The notes under the pieces were generated by a model that saw only the letters and a program-made list of their open reading frames with translations, ran no database searches and was not told the origin of the DNA. This document shows positions 1 through 20,275 of a stretch of DNA of 22,378 bases, piece by piece (the first letter of the stretch is position 1; each line of letters begins with the position of its first letter). The position numbers and the translations under genes were made by a program. The stretch comes from a virus: the IMG/VR virus record IMGVR_UViG_3300036931_000120, positions 1 through 22,378 of that record. One strand, 5' to 3'.

Positions 1-2
1 GC

Positions 3-86
3 TGTGGTTTGCATATCGACCGAGACCTCAATGCTTCCCTAAATATTCTCCGCTTGGGGATACAAGCGGTGGGTGAAAATCCCTAG
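3..86 (+). CDS. tnpB: TnpB (IS200/IS605 family, RNA-guided nuclease) C-terminal fragment
   Basis: This is the last 27 codons of a gene that enters the window from the left and ends at TAG (84-86). The peptide begins CGLHIDRDLNASLNILRLG, which matches the end of TnpB/OrfB. It shows the second half of the zinc-ribbon (CG), then the RuvC-III motif DRDxNA with its catalytic aspartate, and then the NIL helix. TnpB is an RNA-guided DNA nuclease of IS200/IS605-type transposons that promotes retention of the element. The rest of the gene, and any tnpA, lie outside the window, so intactness cannot be judged. It is the only gene on the plus strand and runs convergently toward the phage operon. Confidence 0.88.
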   Translation, partial: CGLHIDRDLNASLNILRLGIQAVGENP

Positions 87-114: not shown

Positions 115-999
115 TCACCCCAGGGCACGTTGTATCGTCATACTCACTCTTCTGTACGCCGTTTTCGGTCTGGGCCACACCATGCCCGCATAGCTACCCG
201 TCGCAATCGACTCCAGACTCGGCCACGCGTTCATTAACTCCCGCAGATGCGCGGGATACAGCATAAGTACGGGGACGCGCATCACATTAGCCAGTATGCT
301 CATCCCCGACGCAAATCCCACCATGTACCTGCACCGCCTTATAACGGCCAATGACACCGGCAGGGCGGTTTGACCAACAATATCGACAACGGGAACGCCA
401 AACCGTTCAAGCATAGGTGCGAGCTGCTCCTTCATGTCGCTGTCCCACCTCGCCCCCAGCAGCACAAACACCACATAAGGGTAGTCGGCGTGGACCTCCC
501 TGATAAAGTCCATCCACTCCCCCGGTCCCCAGCCGTCCCATGCCCTCATGCCGCCAAGACTGGCAGTGTGAATGCCGATGTACATGGCGCCGGGAGGAAG
601 GAGCTCACCACTCGTCGCGATGGCTTCCGGAGGTAGCGGGATATCGTAGTGAAAGTCCGCAGGCAGGTCGGGGAACCACTCTTCCAGGCGGTTGCCGCTG
701 TCCAGCCAGTTATTGCAGCTAAGATAGATGTCAAAGCCCTTGCTCTCCGCATCCAGGACTTCCGCATATGTGCCGTTCCAGCACAATCGCAGCCGCTCGT
801 AAGCAAGCTGTCCGGTACCGTAGCCTGACACGATAGACGGAAAAAGGTCGAGGAACGGTTTGCTGCGCCGGGTTGCGTCTTCGCAGACGGTAAGGTGGAG
901 CGGGCGGCCGCAATTAAGAAATTTGGAGAGCAGCCAGGAAAGATCGCCGACGCCGGGATGGACGGTCATCTTCAGGGGAGTAACGCCAGGCTTGCTCAT
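115..999 (-). CDS. GT9-like (heptosyltransferase-family) glycosyltransferase
   Basis: A GT-B type glycosyltransferase of 294 residues, resembling heptosyltransferases (GT9), which move a heptose from a nucleotide sugar to an acceptor glycan. The N-terminal domain has the loop GVGD near residues 16-19. The C-terminal domain has YIGIHTAS, a W-rich stretch, and then GFASGMSILANVMRVPVLML, matching the GT9 donor-site motif (G.SG...A). The ATG at 999 is chosen because it overlaps the transaldolase stop as ATGA and has AGGAG upstream; an ATG at 1020 is possible. It is the last gene of the sugar cassette. Its stop codon lies inside the IS right end, so the last codons may have been altered by the insertion. 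Acceptor and donor are unknown. Confidence 0.7.
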   Translation of the reverse strand: MSKPGVTPLKMTVHPGVGDLSWLLSKFLNCGRPLHLTVCEDATRRSKPFLDLFPSIVSGYGTGQLAYERLRLCWNGTYAEVLDAESKGFDIYLSCNNWLDSGNRLEEWFPDLPADFHYDIPLPPEAIATSGELLPPGAMYIGIHTASLGGMRAWDGWGPGEWMDFIREVHADYPYVVFVLLGARWDSDMKEQLAPMLERFGVPVVDIVGQTALPVSLAVIRRCRYMVGFASGMSILANVMRVPVLMLYPAHLRELMNAWPSLESIATGSYAGMVWPRPKTAYRRVSMTIQRALG

Positions 1000-1682
1000 G
1001 CTCCCGCTCCTACCTGCCACCCCTTAGAATCCGCCATGAACTTAGCTACGGACTCCGTTGTCCCTGGGTGTTCGCACATCTTCTTTAATATCGGCAGACT
1101 GCAGGTGACGATGTCAGCACCCGCCAGAAAGCAGTCGATAACGTCGTCCGTGGCCCGTATGCTGCCGCAGATAATTTCGGCGGTATCCACCCGGTCGGGT
1201 TCGCTGTTGTAAATCTGCCTGGTATTACGGATGGTTTGGAGCGCAGGAGGCGCAGCCCCTCTATCCTGCATACGGCGGTAGAAGAAACTGACATACTCCG
1301 CTCCGGCTGCCAGCGCCATCACCGCCTGCCCGGTCGTGAATATGGCGGTGCAGTTGACGGGAATACCCATCCTGACCAGTTGCCCTATCACCCCTAATTC
1401 CGCCCACCCGATGGGAATTTTAACGACAAGTCCGGCAGGCATCACCTTTTTTAATTCCTGCGCCTGCGCGATCATTTCCAATGGCGCGGACGCGAACACC
1501 TCTACACTGACAGGGATGCGGCCTTTGACAATCCTGTTTATTGCATGAATGTAGTCGAAGAAGGCCGCCTTTGGCTCCTTTGCCAGTAAGCTCGGGTTAG
1601 TGGTGATGCCGCTGACGATATCATTATCAGCGATCTCTCGAATGTCATTGAGATTGGCGCTGTCAAGAAAGAGGCGCATCAT
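996..1682 (-). CDS. Transaldolase / fructose-6-phosphate aldolase-like (TalC/MipB family)
   Basis: A 228-residue TIM-barrel class I aldolase of the short transaldolase family. The family transfers dihydroxyacetone units between sugar phosphates or cleaves fructose 6-phosphate. Visible motifs are LFLDSAN (catalytic Asp7), SGITTNPSLLAKE, VVKIPIG (Schiff-base Lys88), NCTAIFTTGQA and AGAEYVSFFYRRMQD. The length matches the usual 210-230. Two adjacent ATGs (1682 and 1679) could start it, with GGAG upstream inside the end of the cupin gene, whose TAA is one base away. In the cassette it could supply a sedoheptulose-type precursor, which is inference. Phage transaldolases are known from cyanophages, but this one sits beside sugar-activation genes rather than photosynthesis genes. 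Confidence 0.88.
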   Translation of the reverse strand: MMRLFLDSANLNDIREIADNDIVSGITTNPSLLAKEPKAAFFDYIHAINRIVKGRIPVSVEVFASAPLEMIAQAQELKKVMPAGLVVKIPIGWAELGVIGQLVRMGIPVNCTAIFTTGQAVMALAAGAEYVSFFYRRMQDRGAAPPALQTIRNTRQIYNSEPDRVDTAEIICGSIRATDDVIDCFLAGADIVTCSLPILKKMCEHPGTTESVAKFMADSKGWQVGAGA

Positions 1683-1683
1683 T

Positions 1684-2046
1684 TTACTCCGTGTATGGGT
1701 GTTTGTAGCTCCTGCCATCTTCCACGATGAACACATCAGCAGGGTCGTCATGCGTACTGACTTCGGTAATCAGCACATCGGTAACGGCTATGCGCATGTG
1801 CATCGTCCCCGGCGCAATGTGCCAGGTATCCCCGGCCGTCAACCGTATACTCCCATTCTCTCCCCTTCCATGTCTCGTACCTACGGCCAGCTCCCCCTCT
1901 TCGACTATATACGTTTCCCGCTTCCTGACATGGTACTCAAGACTGCTCTGGCAGCCTGCGCGCATCCATAGCTGCTTCAGGCAATACTCCGGCTGATTGG
2001 TGAGCGTGCGGTGCCTGCCCCAGTACGTTGGTATCCACTTACTCAT
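1684..2046 (-). CDS. Cupin-domain sugar-phosphate isomerase/epimerase-like protein
   Basis: A 120-residue single-domain cupin resembling the C-terminal half of type II mannose-6-phosphate isomerase. Cupin motif 1 is seen as EYHVRKRETYIVEEGE (His39, Glu44, Gly51) and motif 2 as AGDTWHIAPGTMHM (His83), enough for a metal site, though the usual second histidine of HxH is Arg41. WG near the start and a final FIVEDGRSY tract also resemble that family. The ATG at 2046 is chosen over longer frames because the protein aligns from there; it overlaps the kinase stop by 8 bases and has GGAGG upstream. It probably isomerises or epimerises a sugar in this cassette. The substrate cannot be read from sequence. 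Confidence 0.72.
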   Translation of the reverse strand: MSKWIPTYWGRHRTLTNQPEYCLKQLWMRAGCQSSLEYHVRKRETYIVEEGELAVGTRHGRGENGSIRLTAGDTWHIAPGTMHMRIAVTDVLITEVSTHDDPADVFIVEDGRSYKHPYTE

Positions 2047-3034
2047 CTCCAAACACCTCCGCGTATTTCGGGGGTACAGTGCCTGGTAATGCGCACTTCG
2101 CCGCTGCCCAGATGTTTGCTCTGCGCAGGGCTTCCGCATCCCCGAGATGATGGAAGGCGGCGAACGCGGCGAGGAAAGCGTCGCCCGCGCCGCAGGTATC
2201 GGCGACATCGACGGGAATACCTTTCGCCGTGTGGTATGCGGGGAGAATAACGGCCCCATCCTTACCCATCTTGACAATTATGCTTCGGAAATTATCGAGG
2301 GGCCACCTTAAACTATCCAGCCCAGGACCGGCCAAACCGGCGTACTCACGCGAATTGACGAATAAGTAGTCGGCGCCCGAATACCAGCCGTGGTTGCCCG
2401 GTTGCTGACTAACCTGCGAATCGACCATCGTAGTGCAACCACGCTCACGGCAATAGGGTATCGCCCACCGCACGAACTTCTCGGTAAGCAACCCATGGCG
2501 GTAGTCGCTGAAGATAACAAGCCCGCCCCGAATATCCAACGCTTTGAGCGCGGATTCATCCAGGGGGTTTTCCGGAGGGAGCCGGTCTACTTGAAGCAGT
2601 TTACACCCTTCCACCCAATAGCGCTGCTTGGTAACACAGCCGGCGGTGTTTTCATTGGACAAAAAAGTGAAGGAACGGGGACGGAAAGGAGGACGGGAAG
2701 GAGGACGGGGAGGAGGACCTGGACGACTCAGCTCCAAAAGGTTTGTGGCTACAAATGCCGCCCCACCCCTTGTCTCCGTTTCCTTCAATACCTGCATGAC
2801 CAGCGTCGGCGTCTCCGCGCTCACGCCCAGAATACGCCCGTAGGTATTAATGTCGATGATGGTGTCCCCAATCAGGACTAGCCGCCGTTGGTCTGCCGCC
2901 GCCGCCGCCGTTGCTGCTGCCGCCGCCGCCGCCGTTGCTGCTGCCGCCGCCGCTGCCTTCGCCTCCGCACTTGCCGCTGCCAGGACTTCCGCCCACACCT
3001 CTGCCGCCGCCTTCGCCTCCGCCTCCGTCATCAT
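2039..3034 (-). CDS. PfkB-family sugar kinase, HldE kinase-domain-like, with low-complexity expansions
   Basis: Ribokinase-fold kinase resembling the first domain of HldE, which phosphorylates heptose 7-phosphate at C1. Numbering from the GTG at 3037, it shows IGDTIIDINTYG (57-68), RGGAAFVATNL (90-100), KQRYWVEGCKLLQVDR (137-152), IFSDY, VKMGKDGAVIL and the PfkB signature DTCGAGDAF with catalytic Asp286. Two odd segments stand out: an alanine-rich N-terminal tail of about 48 residues, and a Pro/Arg stretch (about 105-122) replacing the segment after the glycine motif that usually carries the VG..G.D part. Both are coded by tandem DNA repeats. Starts at 3037 (GTG), 3034 and 3031 (ATG) are all possible; the aldolase stop overlaps them. 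Kinase identity is firm, activity is not. Confidence 0.8.
   Translation of the reverse strand: MMTEAEAKAAAEVWAEVLAAASAEAKAAAAAAATAAAAAAATAAAAADQRRLVLIGDTIIDINTYGRILGVSAETPTLVMQVLKETETRGGAAFVATNLLELSRPGPPPRPPSRPPFRPRSFTFLSNENTAGCVTKQRYWVEGCKLLQVDRLPPENPLDESALKALDIRGGLVIFSDYRHGLLTEKFVRWAIPYCRERGCTTMVDSQVSQQPGNHGWYSGADYLFVNSREYAGLAGPGLDSLRWPLDNFRSIIVKMGKDGAVILPAYHTAKGIPVDVADTCGAGDAFLAAFAAFHHLGDAEALRRANIWAAAKCALPGTVPPKYAEVFGDE
2679..2714. repeat. 12-bp tandem repeat inside the kinase gene
   Basis: Three near-identical 12-bp units (GGACGGAAAGGA, GGACGGGAAGGA, GGACGGGGAGGA) follow one another, with a partial fourth (GGACCTGG). They keep frame and encode a Pro/Arg stretch within the kinase core, in a place where relatives have ordinary sequence. 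Confidence 0.85.
2894..2957. repeat. 24-bp tandem repeat encoding the alanine-rich kinase N-terminus
   Basis: Two exact 24-bp units (2894-2917 and 2918-2941, made of GCC triplets closed by GTTGCTGC) are followed by a shortened third. They encode an eight-residue period of seven alanines and one threonine. The pattern suggests replication slippage. Confidence 0.85.
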
Positions 3035-3696
3035 CACGATCCTTCTCCTTGTCTGGGTTGGCCGTACTTCGTGTGGTATCTTATATAATTGTCTTCAATC
3101 TGCTTATCCGTCAACATCACCGGCCCCAGGGCCATGGCGTGGTAGATCGTCTTAGCGCAATCCTCCGCCATCACCGCGCGTTTGACGGCCTCCTCCACAC
3201 TGCCGCCCACGGCGAACAGCCCGTGATTCTGTACCAGCACCGCCCCGGCCCTGCTTTTGCCAAGCGCGTCGACAACTACCTCCCCTATCCCCTCCCCGCC
3301 TATTTCCGCGTAAGGAGCACAGGGGATATGGCCTCCAAACTCGTCCGCCATTCCTGTCAGGCAGCATGGAACATCCCTGCCGGCGCAGGCGAAGGCGGTG
3401 GCGAATGTGGAATGCGTATGGACGACGGACATAACGCCGGACAGATGGTTGTGGATGTACAGGTGGCTGGCGGTGTCGGTGGATGGCCGGGGCTCCCTGG
3501 CGTCATACATGCCGTCCATTTCAACCCACACTATCCCGTGCTCATACAGGTTTTCGCAAAATCCACCCGACGCCTTGATGTAGATAAGGCCATTTCTGAC
3601 TGAGCGGACACTGATGTTGCCCTGAGTCCAGACAACGAGACCAAGAGCGTGAAGTTGCCTGTGCCAGTACGCGAGTTGCACCTTCATCCGACTCAA
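3034..3696 (-). CDS. Class II aldolase / L-ribulose-5-phosphate 4-epimerase-like (AraD family)
   Basis: A 220-residue zinc-dependent AraD/FucA-family protein. Members epimerise or cleave pentulose or related sugar phosphates. Seen in order: QGNISV, KASGG, PSTD (Asp74), HTHS with zinc ligands His93 and His95, MADEFGGHIPC (Asp118, matching the AraD catalytic Asp), VLVQNHG (third zinc ligand His158), then YIRYHTKYGQ near the end, close to the AraD terminal motif with its catalytic Tyr. This favours the epimerase branch over fuculose aldolase. The start is probably TTG at 3696, which overlaps the upstream TGA and has AGGGGA upstream at good spacing; ATG at 3687 is the alternative. It may remodel the sugar precursor of the cassette. 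Confidence 0.85.
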   Translation of the reverse strand: MSRMKVQLAYWHRQLHALGLVVWTQGNISVRSVRNGLIYIKASGGFCENLYEHGIVWVEMDGMYDAREPRPSTDTASHLYIHNHLSGVMSVVHTHSTFATAFACAGRDVPCCLTGMADEFGGHIPCAPYAEIGGEGIGEVVVDALGKSRAGAVLVQNHGLFAVGGSVEEAVKRAVMAEDCAKTIYHAMALGPVMLTDKQIEDNYIRYHTKYGQPRQGEGS

Positions 3697-4556
3697 TCGC
3701 CATCCCCTTTATTCTGCTGAATCTTAGTTATGATCGCCGTAGTAGAAACCCCCGGCAGCAACGGACAGACGACAACTTTAATATTCTCCGGTATCCCATC
3801 CCTGCGCCTTACTTCTTCCGCGCCCCACTCCGCCCCCTTTACGACCACATCCGGATTGACCGACAATATAACATCCAGGGTGTTTGTCCCGCAAGCGACT
3901 ACTTCATCCACCGCTCGCAAACTCTCAAGCAGCCGTTTTCTGTCCTCGAACGTGTTCACCGGCCGGCCCTCCCCCTTCAGCTCCCTTACACTCTCATCTG
4001 AGTTCAACCCGACGACCAGCTTGTCCCCCAGCCGCCCAGCAAAATTCAGCATAGTGATATGACCCTGTGTAATGAGGTCGAAGCAACCATTGGCGAACAC
4101 CACCCGCCTGGCCGGCGCGGGGTCGATCTTCGCAATCCTGGGATTGTGCCGCTGCTCTCCAAACTTCGCCGCCAGCCACGCATCGACGATTTCCGCGTTC
4201 CGCTCCGCCGTATTCTTCCAGGTCCCCAGGCACAGTACATTGCTGTCGTTGTGTTCACGGCATAATAGCGCCGTTTCCAGATTATGAACGAGCGCCGCGC
4301 GCACTCCGTTATGCCGGTTGGCGACTATGCTCATTCCCACCCCGGTCCCGCAGACGAGTATCCCCAGTCCGGCATCGCCGGCGGATATTATCTCCGCCAA
4401 CTGGTGGGCGTAGTCTACATAATCCACCGGTGTCTTTGCGGAATACGGCCCAAGGTCGATCACTCTGCGTCCCTTGGAATACAGCTGTATCTTCAAAAGG
4501 CGCTTGGCGTCCACACCGTTATGGTCGGCTGCTAAGAGTATCAGCGAAGAAGTCAT
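3693..4556 (-). CDS. Fusion: RpiB-type sugar-phosphate isomerase + HldE-type nucleotidyltransferase
   Basis: A 287-residue two-domain protein. Residues 1-135 are RpiB/LacAB-like: AADHNG (Asp11), VDYVDYA, ILVCGTGVGMSIVANRHNG with catalytic Cys69, and REHNDSNVLCLG. This domain interconverts aldose and ketose phosphates. Residues 150-285 match the HldE cytidylyltransferase-like domain, which joins a sugar 1-phosphate to a nucleotide: FANGCFDLITQGHITML, GLNSDESVRELKGEGRPVN and PDVVVKGAEW. The usual HxGH motif reads TQGH, so the first histidine is Thr163. The ATG at 4556 fits the RpiB start but has only AGGG upstream. It overlaps the HAD gene by 38 bases. The fusion couples the first and last steps of a heptose-like activation route; the nucleotide and sugar are unknown. 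Confidence 0.87.
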   Translation of the reverse strand: MTSSLILLAADHNGVDAKRLLKIQLYSKGRRVIDLGPYSAKTPVDYVDYAHQLAEIISAGDAGLGILVCGTGVGMSIVANRHNGVRAALVHNLETALLCREHNDSNVLCLGTWKNTAERNAEIVDAWLAAKFGEQRHNPRIAKIDPAPARRVVFANGCFDLITQGHITMLNFAGRLGDKLVVGLNSDESVRELKGEGRPVNTFEDRKRLLESLRAVDEVVACGTNTLDVILSVNPDVVVKGAEWGAEEVRRRDGIPENIKVVVCPLLPGVSTTAIITKIQQNKGDGD

Positions 4557-4821
4557 CCGCGTTAATCCCTTTGTCGTCTACGAATTTATCAGCTTTGGGT
4601 TTGTCCATGATGAGCCTGTGATACGGCACCCCCCAGACCTTCAACTGCGCCTCGGTAAGGCTGCGATGCCCCCCGCCGCGCGCCGTGAATATCCAGATCG
4701 TGTGACCGGCGCGATATAGCCGCTTGATTCGATTGATACGGCGGGTAAAGGGGCGGCAGGACGAGTAGTCGCCGTGGGTCTCGGTAGCCAGTGTCCCGTC
4801 TATGTCCACAGCGATAAGCAT
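4519..4821 (-). CDS. Small HAD-superfamily phosphatase
   Basis: A 100-residue minimal HAD fold. It has motif I VDIDGT (Asp6, Asp8), motif II in IFTARG (Thr46), motif III lysine in MDKPKADKF and motif IV VDDK (Asp82, Asp83). The Asp8 residue points to a phosphatase. It belongs to the short cap-less HAD proteins often found in capsule and phage sugar loci, with the pattern GDYS..P......I..L...GH.I.I.TARG. It is shorter than GmhB (about 190 residues). Its place between methyltransferase and nucleotidyltransferase genes suggests it removes the extra phosphate from a sugar bisphosphate, which is inference. ATG at 4821 follows GGGAG at rather long spacing. Confidence 0.78.
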   Translation of the reverse strand: MLIAVDIDGTLATETHGDYSSCRPFTRRINRIKRLYRAGHTIWIFTARGGGHRSLTEAQLKVWGVPYHRLIMDKPKADKFVDDKGINADDFFADTLSSRP

Positions 4822-4823
4822 GC

Positions 4824-5540
4824 CTACTTCACTCCCAGCGGCAGCAGCCCTCCACAGGCCATTGTCCGCGAAAACCCCGCCCGGCGCAGATACTCTTCCA
4901 CCACCGGCCTGGTAAAGAAGTTAAGATGTTGTTCGGGCTGAATATAATCCTGCCCCCACGAACAGTCCGGCGTCCATCCGTCGAACGGAAACGTCGTGTA
5001 GTAGAATACCCCGCCGGGGCGCAGGCAATCATAGGCCAGCTTGAATATCTCCCGTGGGCTGAAGGCGTGCTCCAGCACCTCGATCGCCGTCACGGTATCA
5101 TAGTAGTCACGCGGTATGCAGCCGGAATCCGGACCATACACCACAAGCCGCCCCCTCCTGCAGTGCTCCAAAGCAAACTCCGCCGTTTCGTAGCCGGCGC
5201 AAAAATACTCAGGGAGGTTACTGGCGAAATCCCCCAAGCCGCACCCAATGTCCAGCAACCTGCCAAGGGGTGGCGTCAACCCCCTGACATGCTCGAGCAT
5301 CCCGCCGTGGACACTGGTCTTCGCAGCCGCAAGGTGGTCGATGCGGCCCTGGTAGAACGCTGCGTCGTACAACGCCTGCAGGGTAGCGGCGTCCGGACGC
5401 GGGTGGATGTATAAGTGCCCGCACCCACGGCATCGGACCATCGTATATGTCACGTCCGGCATCCACATCCCCGGCTTCGTCAGCAATGGTTCACGGTCAT
5501 CGGCGCCGCAGTTGTCGCATTCCGGGCGCACGACTAACAT
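4824..5540 (-). CDS. SAM-dependent methyltransferase with N-terminal zinc ribbon (sugar methyltransferase-like)
   Basis: A 238-residue class I methyltransferase. The N-terminus has two CxxC pairs (Cys8/11 and Cys37/40) followed by HPRPDAATLQALYDAAFYQ, an arrangement typical of methyltransferases that act on nucleotide sugars and surface glycans. The SAM motif LLDIGCGLGDF is near 95-105, followed by AIEVLEH and a late HLNFFTRPVVEEYLRRAGF. The start is the ATG at 5540, not the longer upstream frame: it overlaps the end of the next methyltransferase and has GGAG six bases upstream. It probably C- or O-methylates the sugar made by this cassette; the position is unknown. Confidence 0.78.
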   Translation of the reverse strand: MLVVRPECDNCGADDREPLLTKPGMWMPDVTYTMVRCRGCGHLYIHPRPDAATLQALYDAAFYQGRIDHLAAAKTSVHGGMLEHVRGLTPPLGRLLDIGCGLGDFASNLPEYFCAGYETAEFALEHCRRGRLVVYGPDSGCIPRDYYDTVTAIEVLEHAFSPREIFKLAYDCLRPGGVFYYTTFPFDGWTPDCSWGQDYIQPEQHLNFFTRPVVEEYLRRAGFSRTMACGGLLPLGVK

Positions 5541-6103
5541 CCACGTCTCCGCGCCGCCATCGATATAATCGCCATGTGCCGCCCTGGGTCGCGCAGCGCC
5601 CCCTCGTCGAAATTCCACTCCACCATCTCGTACCCGGCGCAGTGAAGCATCGCGATCAGCGACTTTCGGCTAAAATAGTAAAGATGCTCCACTGGCTTGA
5701 GGTGCTTCCAGCCGATCACATCCCAGGGCGCGTCCTCGACGTTCGGCGTACACAGGAATATCCATCGCGGCGGAGGATGGCCGAAGTTCAGCGTTTCCGC
5801 CGGTGCCCTGAGATGCTCAAGCACATCCCAGAAGGTGACGATGCCCGGATGAAGGCCGTACCGCCAAACGTTATAGGAGGAGAATGGATTGACATCGTAC
5901 CCGTGGCAGTCAAATCCAGGAGGGGCAGCGGAGATAAATGCTCCGGCGCCGCAGCCGAAATCGAGCAGCGTCCCCGCCTGGACATGGCGCAGCACCATCT
6001 GCCAGCGATTAGCCATGATTTGCCGGCCAAGGGGGGACGCCCCCTCGGCCGCATACTCGTCAATGTAGGCTTGTGTAAATTGGTGCTCATGATGAAGTGG
6101 CAT
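5534..6103 (-). CDS. SAM-dependent methyltransferase, class I
   Basis: A 189-residue Rossmann methyltransferase with motif I LLDFGCGAGAF (46-56), an acidic residue after strand 2 (GYDVN, Asp70), FWDVLEH (91-97) and a late HLYYFSRKSLIAMLHCAGY. The last matches the corresponding part of the next gene, so the two may be distant paralogues, but this one lacks the zinc ribbon. ATG 6103 is preferred, with AAGGA about 8 bases upstream; ATG 6112 gives three more residues. The ribosome-binding site is supplied by the last unit of a tandem repeat (6108-6190). It is the first gene of the sugar cassette; a sugar or glycan substrate is likely from context only. Confidence 0.75.
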   Translation of the reverse strand: MPLHHEHQFTQAYIDEYAAEGASPLGRQIMANRWQMVLRHVQAGTLLDFGCGAGAFISAAPPGFDCHGYDVNPFSSYNVWRYGLHPGIVTFWDVLEHLRAPAETLNFGHPPPRWIFLCTPNVEDAPWDVIGWKHLKPVEHLYYFSRKSLIAMLHCAGYEMVEWNFDEGALRDPGRHMAIISMAARRRGC

Positions 6104-8943: not shown

Positions 8944-9015
8944 GCTACATGACTGCGTAGCTACATTACCGCGCAGCTACATGACTACGTAGCTATATGA
9001 CTACATGACTGCGCA
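8944..9015. repeat. 16-bp tandem repeat between decoration and capsid genes
   Basis: Units on the plus strand are GCTACATGACTGCGTA (8944-8959), GCTACATTACCGCGCA, GCTACATGACTACGTA and an enlarged GCTATATGACTACATGACTGCGCA form (8992-9015). The junctions make small palindromes (GTAGCTAC, CTACGTAG). The remaining upstream region of the capsid gene (8860-8943) holds a ribosome-binding site and a short open stretch without a start codon. Confidence 0.85.
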
Positions 9016-11138: not shown

Positions 11139-11483
11139 TTAGGTCTCCTTCTTGAAGTTGTAATCGGGGGCCGCGCCCTTCGCGATAACCGCCTTGCAGT
11201 CCTCGTCATTACAGAGGACGCAGCGCTCCAACCCTGTAATCTCGGCGTCTACCGTTATGCCCGAATACCGGGGAAAGCACACACGGTCGCCTACTCCCGC
11301 CCAGGGCGTTCCATCCCCAAACGCCTGCCAGGCCTGCCGGCCTACGGCCAGGATTACCCCGGTGGTGGCCGCTTTCTGATGTGTCTCACGCACAGTGTCA
11401 GGGACATATAGCATTCCGCCGGCTGTTCGTTCTTTGACTTCGTCAAGCTGCACTAAAACTAAATGTCCGCAGGGTTCAATCAT
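11139..11483 (-). CDS. GroES-like co-chaperonin (Cpn10 family)
   Basis: A 114-residue protein matching Cpn10 over its first 85 residues: EPCGHLVLVQLDEVKERTAG resembles the P..DRV.V...E...K.AGG opening, then GGMLYVPD begins the mobile loop, GVILAVG matches G.V.AVG, and VGDRVCFPRYSG matches VGD.V.F....G. A C-terminal extension contains ERCVLCNDEDCKAVI, which parallels the final L...DILA but with extra cysteines. Cpn10 caps GroEL; phages such as T4 (gp31) encode one to fold capsid protein. Location between portal and scaffold-like genes fits that job. ATG 11483 has AGGAG seven bases upstream; a GTG three bases earlier is possible. Confidence 0.78.
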   Translation of the reverse strand: MIEPCGHLVLVQLDEVKERTAGGMLYVPDTVRETHQKAATTGVILAVGRQAWQAFGDGTPWAGVGDRVCFPRYSGITVDAEITGLERCVLCNDEDCKAVIAKGAAPDYNFKKET

Positions 11484-11534
11484 CACATGACTCCTTGTAT
11501 GGGTTGTCGTCGTACTTACTCCCTGTCGTCGTAT

Positions 11535-17419: not shown

Positions 17420-20275
17420 TCAATTAAACACCACGAAGCTCACCGGCGTCTCGGCCGTTACCCCGGCGACCATGTTTATCGTGAAACTACCCGCAGCCGC
17501 CACCACGTTCTTAACCTGGGCGGTCGTGTCATTCGACGCAGGGACAGCGATTACGATACTCCTGGCCGTCACGAGATTATTCGTTACCGTAACTGTGGTT
17601 CCAGCCGCAGCAATTCTAACCTGTCCGGCGCTCTTATTGATTGTCTTGTTACCTGTTGCGCCGGCGGTTATAAGCGTCGGACCAAAGTTTATCCCGCCGC
17701 CAACCGTGATGAAACCACCCTGGATTTCCTGTACGCTAACGCTGGTAATTGTAAACGCCCCCGAAGTTACCCCGCTGACGCTCAGCACGATACTGGCCGG
17801 ACTCGCGGTAGAATAGAAAAGGACAGTGTTCGTACCCGCCGCGATCGGCAAAGTGGCCGATGCTCCGGCAAATCCCGTTGTAAGCAGCATCGTGCCACCG
17901 ACCTCTGTTGGAGCAGCCGAAACGATGTACTGAATTTGGTACTTGCGAAGTCCCGCCGACGCCTGTGCCTGATTAGCCGCCGTTTGCGTAATCGTGCCTG
18001 AACCGGACGACTTCGTGAATGTCGCCGCTGTCCCATTTATGGCGAAGTCACCGGCAAGTGTCCAGGTAGACTGACTAAAGTCTGCCGGGTTGCTGCAAGA
18101 CTCTGTGCCGAGGACCGTCGAGTCCTGAATAGATACTTTTGTGGGCGGGGTCGTGTCTCCTATGCCAACATTGCCGGCTGATATAATCGTTTTAGTAACC
18201 GAGGAGTTTCCTATCGTTGTCGAATTCGAGCCATTACCCACCGCGCTGTAGCCGATGACCGTCTCGTTAGTGTCCCCGTCAGTTAATGGGTAGGCGCTAT
18301 TCCCAAGATAAAGAGAGTTTGTCGCTATGGCATTCGTGACTGAACCACCGGAAATATAGGTACCTGCCTGATAGCCGAGCGCCGTATTCCCCGAACCTGC
18401 GTTCAATGAAGCCACAGGAACACTAAATCCAGAACCAGTACCCCCGATGGAAGCGGCAGGGGCAGTAAGAACAGTCGTAGTGTCTTTAAATCTAGCGCCA
18501 GGAGAAGTTATTGTAACTGAGCTCACCGCGCCACCAGCTGAAACAACAATCGTAGCGGTTGGGTACGTTGTGGCGGTCGACCCGCTTGAAAGCGTCATCG
18601 CGATGCCAGTGTATGTTCCTGGTGTATATAAAGAACCTCCCGTAATCGTCCCAAGCGTTGCGACGTTGGTGGTGTTGTAGTAAAGGGATCGATAGCCATT
18701 GGCATTGGTGTAGCTACCCGTGGTGTTGGAGTAGAGGGATTGATAGCCATTGGCATTGTTGTAGCTACCCGTGGTGTTGGAGTAGAGGGAGGCATAGCCA
18801 TTGGCATTGTTGTTGACGCCTGTGGTGTTGAAGTAGAGGGATTGATAGCCATTGGCATTGTTGTAGCTACCCGTGGTGTTGGAGTAGAGGGAGGCATAGC
18901 CATTGGCATTGTTGTTGACGCCTGTGGTGTTGAAGCAGAGGGATTCATAGCCATTGGCAGTGTTGTAGCTACCTGTGGTGTTGGAGTAGAGGGATTGATA
19001 GCCATTGGCATTGTTGTAGCTACCTGTGGTGTTGGAGTAGAGGGATTCATAGCCATTGGCAGTGTTGTTGACGCCTGTGGTGTTGGAGTAGAGGGATTCA
19101 AAGCCATTGGCAGTGCTGAAGTTGCCCGTGGTGTTGTAGTAAAGGGATTGAAAGCCATTGGCAGTGTTGTAGCTACCTGTGGTGTTGAAGTAGAGGGATT
19201 GATAGCCATTGGCATTGTTGTAGCTACCCGTGGTGTTGGAGTACCCTGCTTGATAACCTAACCAGGTGTTTAGTAAAGTATTGTCAAAATTGATTAAATT
19301 CGCTACTTGAATCGTATTGTCGGGCGTAGTCGTCCCGATGCCGACACTGCCGGCAAAATAAGCCTTCCCACTCGCAAACACCGCATTTTGCAGCACGCCG
19401 GTCGAGTCCGTCTCAGCACTTATTGGAGCCTGCGCGCTGGAAATAGCCGTACCCGCCCCCCAGGAGGGAGAACTGTCTATCACAGCCGTTGTCGAGTTGG
19501 TCCAGGACAGGATATGCGTAGATGTGCCCGAGTGCGTAACCGTAAACCCACGGCTGCCAGGATACCCGGCTGCCACAGCATCGGCGGAACTCGTAAAAGC
19601 CAGGGCGGTCCCGCTCGTACTCATCGTCCCGGCAAAGGACGTGATCGCCGCCGCGCCGGTAATCTGCGGACTGACGGAGGGCGCGCCCCCCAGCACGGAG
19701 AGGGCGCTGGAGGCGGTTGACTGACCCAGGAACGTCTTCATAAACGCACTGAGCGTGCTCAACACTTTTTGCATGGGGGATGACGCCGTCCCCGGCGTCA
19801 CCCATACTTTGATCGTAAACGTCTTCGCGCTGCCCACGCCGGACGCGCCCGGAATCAGCAGCCGGTTGGGAATCGGCGCCACGTACCCGCTGTCGGTATC
19901 GAAGATCGTACTGGCGGAGTTGCTGCATGACGCCGCCAATCCCTGGAGAAAATCGCTGGTAGTGTCCGGAGTCGTGCCTGTGCGAACAGGGTTGAGGGTA
20001 ACGGCGAAGCCTGTGGTGGGCTGAGCGCCGGCCGTACCTGGAATGATTTCGACACGGGCGGCGGCGCCGGCGATGGGGTAGTTGGGCGTGCCGGTGAGAG
20101 TGGGCGCGTTGACGTTGCCGCTGGCGTCGGCTGTGCAGGACCATACCAGCTCCGTACTCCCCATGCTGGCGGTAGGAGCGGGAGTGAAGACGCAACTACC
20201 GGCGGCGAAGGAGGGGGGTGTGAACATGCACATGTGGATAAGCAGGACAATCAGGATCGCGATGAGTCGTTTCAA
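17420..20275 (-). CDS. Tail-fibre-like or adhesin protein with Sec signal peptide and YadA-type repeats
   Basis: A 951-residue fibrous protein. Residues 1-24 form a Sec signal peptide (MKRLIAILIVLLIHMCMF..SFAA). A beta-rich N-terminal part leads to VGIGTTTPDN, a motif common in bacterial and phage fibres. Residues 347-533 hold eleven 17-residue repeats of the type NTTGSYNNANGYQSLYS, like the trimeric YadA/fibre head repeat. About 545-622 is a glycine-rich module (VSAGGAVSSVTITSPGARF) known from phage fibres, inserted before the repeat-like NTALGYQAG resumes. Near 710-830 is a jelly-roll, carbohydrate-binding-like module. The start is TTG with a perfect AAAGGAGGTG upstream. Host recognition or surface adhesion is inferred. 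Confidence 0.72.
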   Translation of the reverse strand: MKRLIAILIVLLIHMCMFTPPSFAAGSCVFTPAPTASMGSTELVWSCTADASGNVNAPTLTGTPNYPIAGAAARVEIIPGTAGAQPTTGFAVTLNPVRTGTTPDTTSDFLQGLAASCSNSASTIFDTDSGYVAPIPNRLLIPGASGVGSAKTFTIKVWVTPGTASSPMQKVLSTLSAFMKTFLGQSTASSALSVLGGAPSVSPQITGAAAITSFAGTMSTSGTALAFTSSADAVAAGYPGSRGFTVTHSGTSTHILSWTNSTTAVIDSSPSWGAGTAISSAQAPISAETDSTGVLQNAVFASGKAYFAGSVGIGTTTPDNTIQVANLINFDNTLLNTWLGYQAGYSNTTGSYNNANGYQSLYFNTTGSYNTANGFQSLYYNTTGNFSTANGFESLYSNTTGVNNTANGYESLYSNTTGSYNNANGYQSLYSNTTGSYNTANGYESLCFNTTGVNNNANGYASLYSNTTGSYNNANGYQSLYFNTTGVNNNANGYASLYSNTTGSYNNANGYQSLYSNTTGSYTNANGYRSLYYNTTNVATLGTITGGSLYTPGTYTGIAMTLSSGSTATTYPTATIVVSAGGAVSSVTITSPGARFKDTTTVLTAPAASIGGTGSGFSVPVASLNAGSGNTALGYQAGTYISGGSVTNAIATNSLYLGNSAYPLTDGDTNETVIGYSAVGNGSNSTTIGNSSVTKTIISAGNVGIGDTTPPTKVSIQDSTVLGTESCSNPADFSQSTWTLAGDFAINGTAATFTKSSGSGTITQTAANQAQASAGLRKYQIQYIVSAAPTEVGGTMLLTTGFAGASATLPIAAGTNTVLFYSTASPASIVLSVSGVTSGAFTITSVSVQEIQGGFITVGGGINFGPTLITAGATGNKTINKSAGQVRIAAAGTTVTVTNNLVTARSIVIAVPASNDTTAQVKNVVAAAGSFTINMVAGVTAETPVSFVVFN
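18677..19237 (-). repeat. Eleven 51-bp repeats coding the fibre head region
   Basis: Eleven units of 51 bp (17 codons) lie in tandem within the fibre gene. Units differ mainly at the positions coding SYNN/VNNN and YQSL/YASL/YESL. Their length is a multiple of three, so several false open frames run through the same stretch on both strands. Confidence 0.9.

Follow-up and report, generated by a model that had tools for sequence, protein, structure and literature searches.

Results

A nine-gene operon in a tailed-phage contig

The window analysed here is the whole of IMG/VR record IMGVR_UViG_3300036931_000120, 22,378 bases of viral DNA, and our subject is the group of nine tightly packed genes at positions 115-6103 on its minus strand, which an earlier note, made from the sequence alone, had interpreted as encoding the synthesis of an activated heptose-like sugar. 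All nine genes were confirmed by Pfam, NCBIfam or phrog matches. Neighbouring genes overlap or abut, and GGAG/AGGAG-like sites precede several of the starts. The genes are given below in order of transcription, with refined likely starts for methyltransferase 1, the cupin, the transaldolase and the GT9 gene.

5534-6103, minus: methyltransferase 1, S-adenosylmethionine (SAM) methyltransferase (PF13489, 64 bits; phrog_6564)
4824-5618, minus: methyltransferase 2, SAM methyltransferase with N-terminal Cys pairs (PF13489, 62 bits)
4519-4821, minus: small HAD phosphatase, EcbF/BcbF-like (phrog_1238, 8.7e-26)
3693-4556, minus: modified RpiB-type isomerase (residues 1-147; PF02502, 155 bits) and HldE-C-type nucleotidyltransferase (residues 149-287; PF01467/TIGR02199, 132 bits) in one open reading frame (ORF)
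3034-3696, minus: AraD-type L-ribulose-5-phosphate-4-epimerase-like enzyme (PF00596, 157 bits)
2039-3037, minus: HldA/HldE-N-like PfkB kinase (PF00294; TIGR02198 rfaE_dom_I, 81 bits)
1684-2046, minus: single-domain cupin, putative metal-dependent sugar isomerase/epimerase (phrog_7851, 9.8e-16; weak in Pfam)
996-1682, minus: transaldolase, small TalC type (PF00923, 143 bits)
115-999, minus: GT9-family glycosyltransferase (heptosyltransferase family), probable user of the activated sugar (PF01075; weak TIGR02193/TIGR02195)

A second contig of 74.9 kb (L001) contains a 14,556-base stretch that is 100% identical to the window, which makes an assembly accident unlikely, and the nine-gene cluster is more than chance, since about 50 viral contigs share six of its genes. 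The guanine-plus-cytosine content of the cassette (58%) differs so little from that of the rest of the window (56%) that composition is uninformative on recent transfer. Terminase, portal and capsid genes precede the operon on the same strand, as befits a bona fide phage contig, while beyond the operon L001 continues with a TnpB/IS605 OrfB gene, followed by genes for an SU10-like adaptor and for head closure. The operon and the insertion-sequence gene behind it thus lie within the late head/neck (virion) module of a tailed phage. Packing with head genes, which the earlier note had called unusual, holds for the window but not for a T4-like contig (L002), where the cassette is located near replication genes. 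The TnpB/IS605 OrfB gene (L001:14471-15577, overlapping window positions 1-86) stands directly behind the cassette and is possibly a relic of the operon's entry into the head/neck module.

Six of the genes form a recurrent, mostly viral cassette

The fusion, the kinase, the AraD-type 4-epimerase, the cupin, the transaldolase and the small HAD form a conserved set that recurs as a group in about 50 IMG/VR contigs. When the fusion protein was used as query, the full fusion was recovered in 50 viral contigs, many of them near-duplicates; together with cellular copies, the cassette sequence set comprises 58 rows, representing 45 distinct proteins. Constant separation of the homologues, which the earlier note had named as a refutation, was not seen: elsewhere, too, they stand together, with gene order unchanged or nearly so, usually fusion, kinase, AraD, cupin, transaldolase and HAD in the neighbour maps, with AraD before the kinase in the window, in L141 and in two contigs from bacterial metagenome-assembled genomes (MAGs; L059 and L061). 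The two methyltransferases are local and outside the conserved cassette, only weak or partial matches being found near other cassettes, and a methylated sugar, which had been suggested earlier, was therefore rejected as a property of the cassette.

T4-type gp23 and gp21 were found in 10 of the 34 other contigs tested, whereas the head module of the window phage differs, which indicates transfer of the cassette among unrelated phages. The whole fusion was not found in cultured phages, the isolate records giving half-matches only, except for one HldE in a bacterial record; nor was it found among the best matches listed in a plasmid search. Among 84,980 cellular genomes it occurs in only eight contigs: four belong to Parcubacteria/Taylorbacteria, one to a single cell of Prochlorococcus, and the other three are from MAGs. 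By lineage, it is present in 1 of 300 Prochlorococcus-family genomes and in 2 of the 286 genomes from the Parcubacteria class. Phylogenetically, the sequence from Prochlorococcus falls inside a clade of phage sequences (support 100/96); the window sequence has a long branch whose placement is not firm. That the cassette is mobile and mostly viral is a reading which, taken jointly with that of a heptose-like sugar, we regard as moderately probable.

Some contigs carry further modules after the main cassette: a second set of nucleotidyltransferase, kinase and cupin genes at L021:11682-13176, L027:12678-14185 and L028:10372-11879, and a second set of HAD, nucleotidyltransferase and kinase genes at L056:14558-16323, an arrangement that would suit the production of two related sugars.

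The RpiB domain carries a cassette-specific signature

The RpiB domains of the cassettes were compared with 72 ordinary RpiBs, and the comparison then covered all 58 cassette rows. The catalytic residues Asp11, His12, Cys69, His102, Arg136 and Arg140 are kept. Position 113, however, is Trp in 58/58 cassette sequences and Arg in 71 of the 72 ordinary RpiBs, and at position 13 Asn replaces Ala, again in 58/58; the phosphate-binding Arg113, used as a test for a ribose-5-phosphate isomerase B, is thus missing from the cassette copies. The unfused but cassette-linked RpiB of L056 has the same changes, while they are absent from the RpiB of L142, which is not accompanied by such a cassette. Arg113 is listed among the RpiB residues critical to substrate recognition (PMC4783025), and in LacAB, a relative acting on hexose phosphates, the phosphate is reported to be contacted by Arg39 instead of Arg113, in a pocket that is longer by 3 Å (PMC3755991). 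The exchange of Arg113 for Trp, together with the LacAB parallel, suggests that the substrate is not ribose 5-phosphate but another, plausibly longer, compound.

An ordinary housekeeping role for this domain is argued against by the same exchange and by the separate RpiB-family gene that is kept in all four candidate phyla radiation (CPR) hosts examined. It should be noted that these four separate copies are not uniform controls: Ala13 occurs in three of them, alongside Arg113 in two and a gap at 113 in the third, the fourth being divergent (Arg13, Asp113); the Cys69 column is Gly in three of the four. As to the GmhA-type SIS gene, no PF13580 match was found in 45 phage records, which are possibly fragments, while the control was positive in 11 of 14 genomes. 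The proposed substitution of an RpiB-type enzyme for GmhA is supported by both the PF02502 domain and the missing GmhA match. We found no description of the gene set or of the Trp113 signature in the open-licence literature. An RpiB with Trp113, usually fused to HldE-C, offers a precise search signature for such systems.

Kinase and nucleotidyltransferase

In a profile comparison with the kinase, HldA (4e84) comes first at 92 bits, with the next match at 62, and the predicted model of the window kinase is also closest to 4e84 (Z 27.5, 2.4 Å over 258 residues). TIGR02198 matches at 81 bits, below its cut-off of 345. For the nucleotidyltransferase half, the best family is TIGR02199, at 132 bits with a cut-off of 181.5. 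Destroyed active sites, which the earlier note had named as a ground for refutation, are seen in neither enzyme, as the catalytic GAGD motif and the HldA fold of the kinase are intact and the nucleotidyltransferase keeps its (H/T)xGH and STT motifs. A degenerate kinase is likewise not borne out by the model, the fold being predicted well (pLDDT 85), with low confidence at residues 60-82. The window kinase (2039-3037) has an Ala-rich N-terminal tract, as well as a Pro-rich tract in place of a middle segment present in relatives, and these tracts may reflect repeat expansion or relaxed constraint.

AraD-type enzyme, transaldolase, HAD and cupin

Two of the gene products had been described earlier as aldolases, a description that we correct for both. 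The family profile of the AraD-type protein scores 295 bits with E. coli L-ribulose-5-phosphate 4-epimerase (1jdi), compared to 108 for the best fuculose-phosphate aldolase; D74, D118 and Y211 are invariant in 22 sequences, and the zinc histidines H93, H95 and H158 are kept. By these scores and residues, the protein is of the epimerase type and not of the FucA aldolase type, and the fuculose-phosphate aldolase identity was rejected. AraD is absent from six loci, which amounts to four changes on the tree, while the transaldolase, the fusion, the kinase and the cupin remain; AraD is thus an optional tailoring step.

The transaldolase has Glu61, Phe134, the Schiff-base Lys88 and Ser174/Arg176. 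Across the family, Glu61 is present in 90% or more of sequences and Phe134 is invariant; these positions correspond to Gln59 and Tyr131 of fructose-6-phosphate aldolase (FSA), and we take Glu and Phe there to be transaldolase-type residues. The profile scores 209 bits with the B. subtilis transaldolase 3r8r in the PDB and at most 138 with fructose-6-phosphate aldolases, an identity that was thus rejected by both scores and residues.

The small HAD keeps its catalytic residues, and its closest PDB match is 9iqw, 'Capsule biosynthesis protein', at 77 bits. The AlphaFold model of the cupin (pLDDT 93) is nearest to the CapF C-terminal cupin (Z 15.9, 2.0 Å over 108 residues); D-lyxose isomerases and phosphomannose isomerases of the cupin class are further close matches. 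The fold is so common that 825 chains score Z 8 or more. In the Parcubacteria contig L062 (10073-11338), a cupin is fused to a HAD phosphatase, which suggests that the two catalyse adjacent reactions.

Glycan genes surround the cassette

In 16 of the 18 contigs that have a GT9 match, it lies within 6.5 kb of the fusion, where about 4 would be expected under uniform placement, bearing in mind that the nearer of two matches was used, slightly favouring proximity, and that the uniform null ignores the general clustering of glycan genes. When GT9 genes were sought by iterative local searching, the search settled on a small number of genes and left out divergent GT9s caught by PF01075. The flanks of the cassettes contain many glycosyltransferases, sugar-nucleotide epimerases and GDP-mannose-dehydratase-type enzymes. 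Of the cellular copies, two in Parcubacteria (L062 and L064) are adjoined by clear GT9 genes, and the one in L059 is preceded by a Wzx-like flippase. The GT9 proximity, the glycan-rich flanks and the cellular neighbours together make a surface glycan the likeliest target, with decoration of the virion possible given the late-gene setting in the window.

Other features of the window

A 951-aa virion-protein-like ORF with many imperfect NGxxSLYxNTTG repeats lies at 17420-20275, and a GroES-like co-chaperonin gene at 11139-11486, between scaffold-like and portal genes. Upstream of the capsid gene, a short repeat-rich stretch (8980-9007) contains two copies of ATGACTAC.

Discussion

Every catalytic step of the ADP-heptose logic is represented in the cassette, with residues kept. 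On balance, we favour the reading that the cassette synthesises and activates an unusual aldose for transfer to a glycan, and that this sugar is most likely a heptose isomer. The transaldolase would provide sedoheptulose 7-phosphate or a closely related ketose phosphate, which the AraD-type enzyme would epimerise at C4 in most loci. The modified RpiB domain, replacing GmhA, may then convert the ketose phosphate into an aldose phosphate, the HldA-like kinase would phosphorylate C1, the small HAD would strip the terminal phosphate from the resulting bisphosphate and the fused HldE-C domain would form the nucleotide sugar, probably ADP-linked. The cupin may add one further isomerisation or epimerisation, and the GT9-type transferase would attach the sugar to a glycan on the infected host's surface or, with lower probability, to the virion. 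We infer the substrates, the nucleotide, the cupin step, the order of steps and the target.

Several points weigh against this reading and should be considered. The pocket motifs of the kinase diverge from HldA (VDPKG to SQxS and RVD to QxN/D), so that its substrate may not be heptose 7-phosphate, and the window copy could be impaired, given its low-complexity tracts and lost middle segment. The GT9 of the window is marginal (PF01075, 22.6 bits with a cut-off of 22), and a GT9 exceeds the cut-off in only 9 of 44 contigs. In addition, substrate length and nucleotide are deduced from homology.

The main rival, which we consider rather improbable, keeps the same architecture with a six-carbon product (a galacto/allo-type hexose, LacAB-like) or an eight-carbon one. 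RpiB/LacAB relatives are active on allose 6-phosphate and tagatose/galactose 6-phosphate according to our literature search, 4-epimerisation of fructose 6-phosphate by an AraD-type enzyme would give tagatose 6-phosphate, and a transaldolase can yield an octulose phosphate with ribose 5-phosphate as acceptor. However, hexose phosphates can be obtained without a transaldolase, and the closeness of the kinase and the nucleotidyltransferase to heptose enzymes, as well as the GT9 association, argue against both a hexose and an octose.

The activated sugar might instead decorate phage DNA or virion proteins, as would fit the C5 DNA methyltransferase gene in the window and the position of the operon between the major capsid gene and the SU10-like adaptor and head-closure genes; but with surface-polysaccharide genes flanking the cassette elsewhere, a Wzx-like flippase or glycosyltransferases beside the cellular copies and no DNA-hypermodification enzyme seen beside the cassette, we judge this to be distinctly unlikely. 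A boost of the pentose phosphate pathway for nucleotide supply by the transaldolase, RpiB and AraD, with the sugar-activation genes as mere neighbours, recalls the role proposed for cyanophage talC, and phage transaldolases do form their own family (phrog_440) and are tied to this pathway in cyanophages, but it is highly improbable as Arg113 is lost in all cassette RpiBs, these are fused to a nucleotidyltransferase, the six genes travel jointly in unrelated phages and cells, and the four CPR hosts have a separate RpiB-family gene.

Within the reading of a heptose isomer, chemical reasoning alone indicates that an AraD-type enzyme acting on sedoheptulose 7-phosphate could yield manno-heptulose 7-phosphate, which would lead to galacto- or talo-type heptoses. 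We tentatively propose, as a possibility on the doubtful side, a virus-dominated, GmhA-independent route to activated heptose that is not known from cells, in which the Trp113 RpiB replaces GmhA and the presence or absence of AraD switches between two C4-epimeric sugars. If true, this switch would be a modular way for phages to vary surface glycans. For rare-sugar chemistry, the cassette is also a source of new enzymes, and its product is a candidate for a new sugar nucleotide.

Comparison with known systems

With the canonical ADP-heptose pathway (gmh/hld), the cassette shares the logic of isomerase, C1 kinase, phosphatase and nucleotidyltransferase, the predicted kinase fold, the best-matching nucleotidyltransferase family and a nearby GT9-family transferase. 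It differs in having an RpiB-type enzyme for GmhA and a small EcbF-like HAD for GmhB, in adding a transaldolase, an AraD-type epimerase and a cupin, and in its diverged kinase pocket motifs. Its isomerase domain belongs to the family of RpiB/AlsB and LacAB and shares the catalytic Cys69, the ring-opening His102 and the phosphate residues Arg136 and Arg140, whereas Trp113, Asn13 and fusion to a nucleotidyltransferase set the cassette copies apart. A variant is found in the cultured Prochlorococcus phage P-TIM68 (L008:6323-11607), where the kinase, HldE-C, the cupin (phrog_7851) and the HAD (phrog_1238) are likewise clustered with glycosyltransferases, but where the precursor genes are a transketolase and epimerases, and the cluster is without the RpiB fusion, AraD and the transaldolase. 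Individual lipopolysaccharide genes are already known in phages, rfaE and others being on record in marine phages (pelagimyophage) (PMC7029224); a complete pathway that is portable and conserved and includes a modified isomerase of its own would mean that viruses maintain a dedicated rare-sugar biosynthesis.

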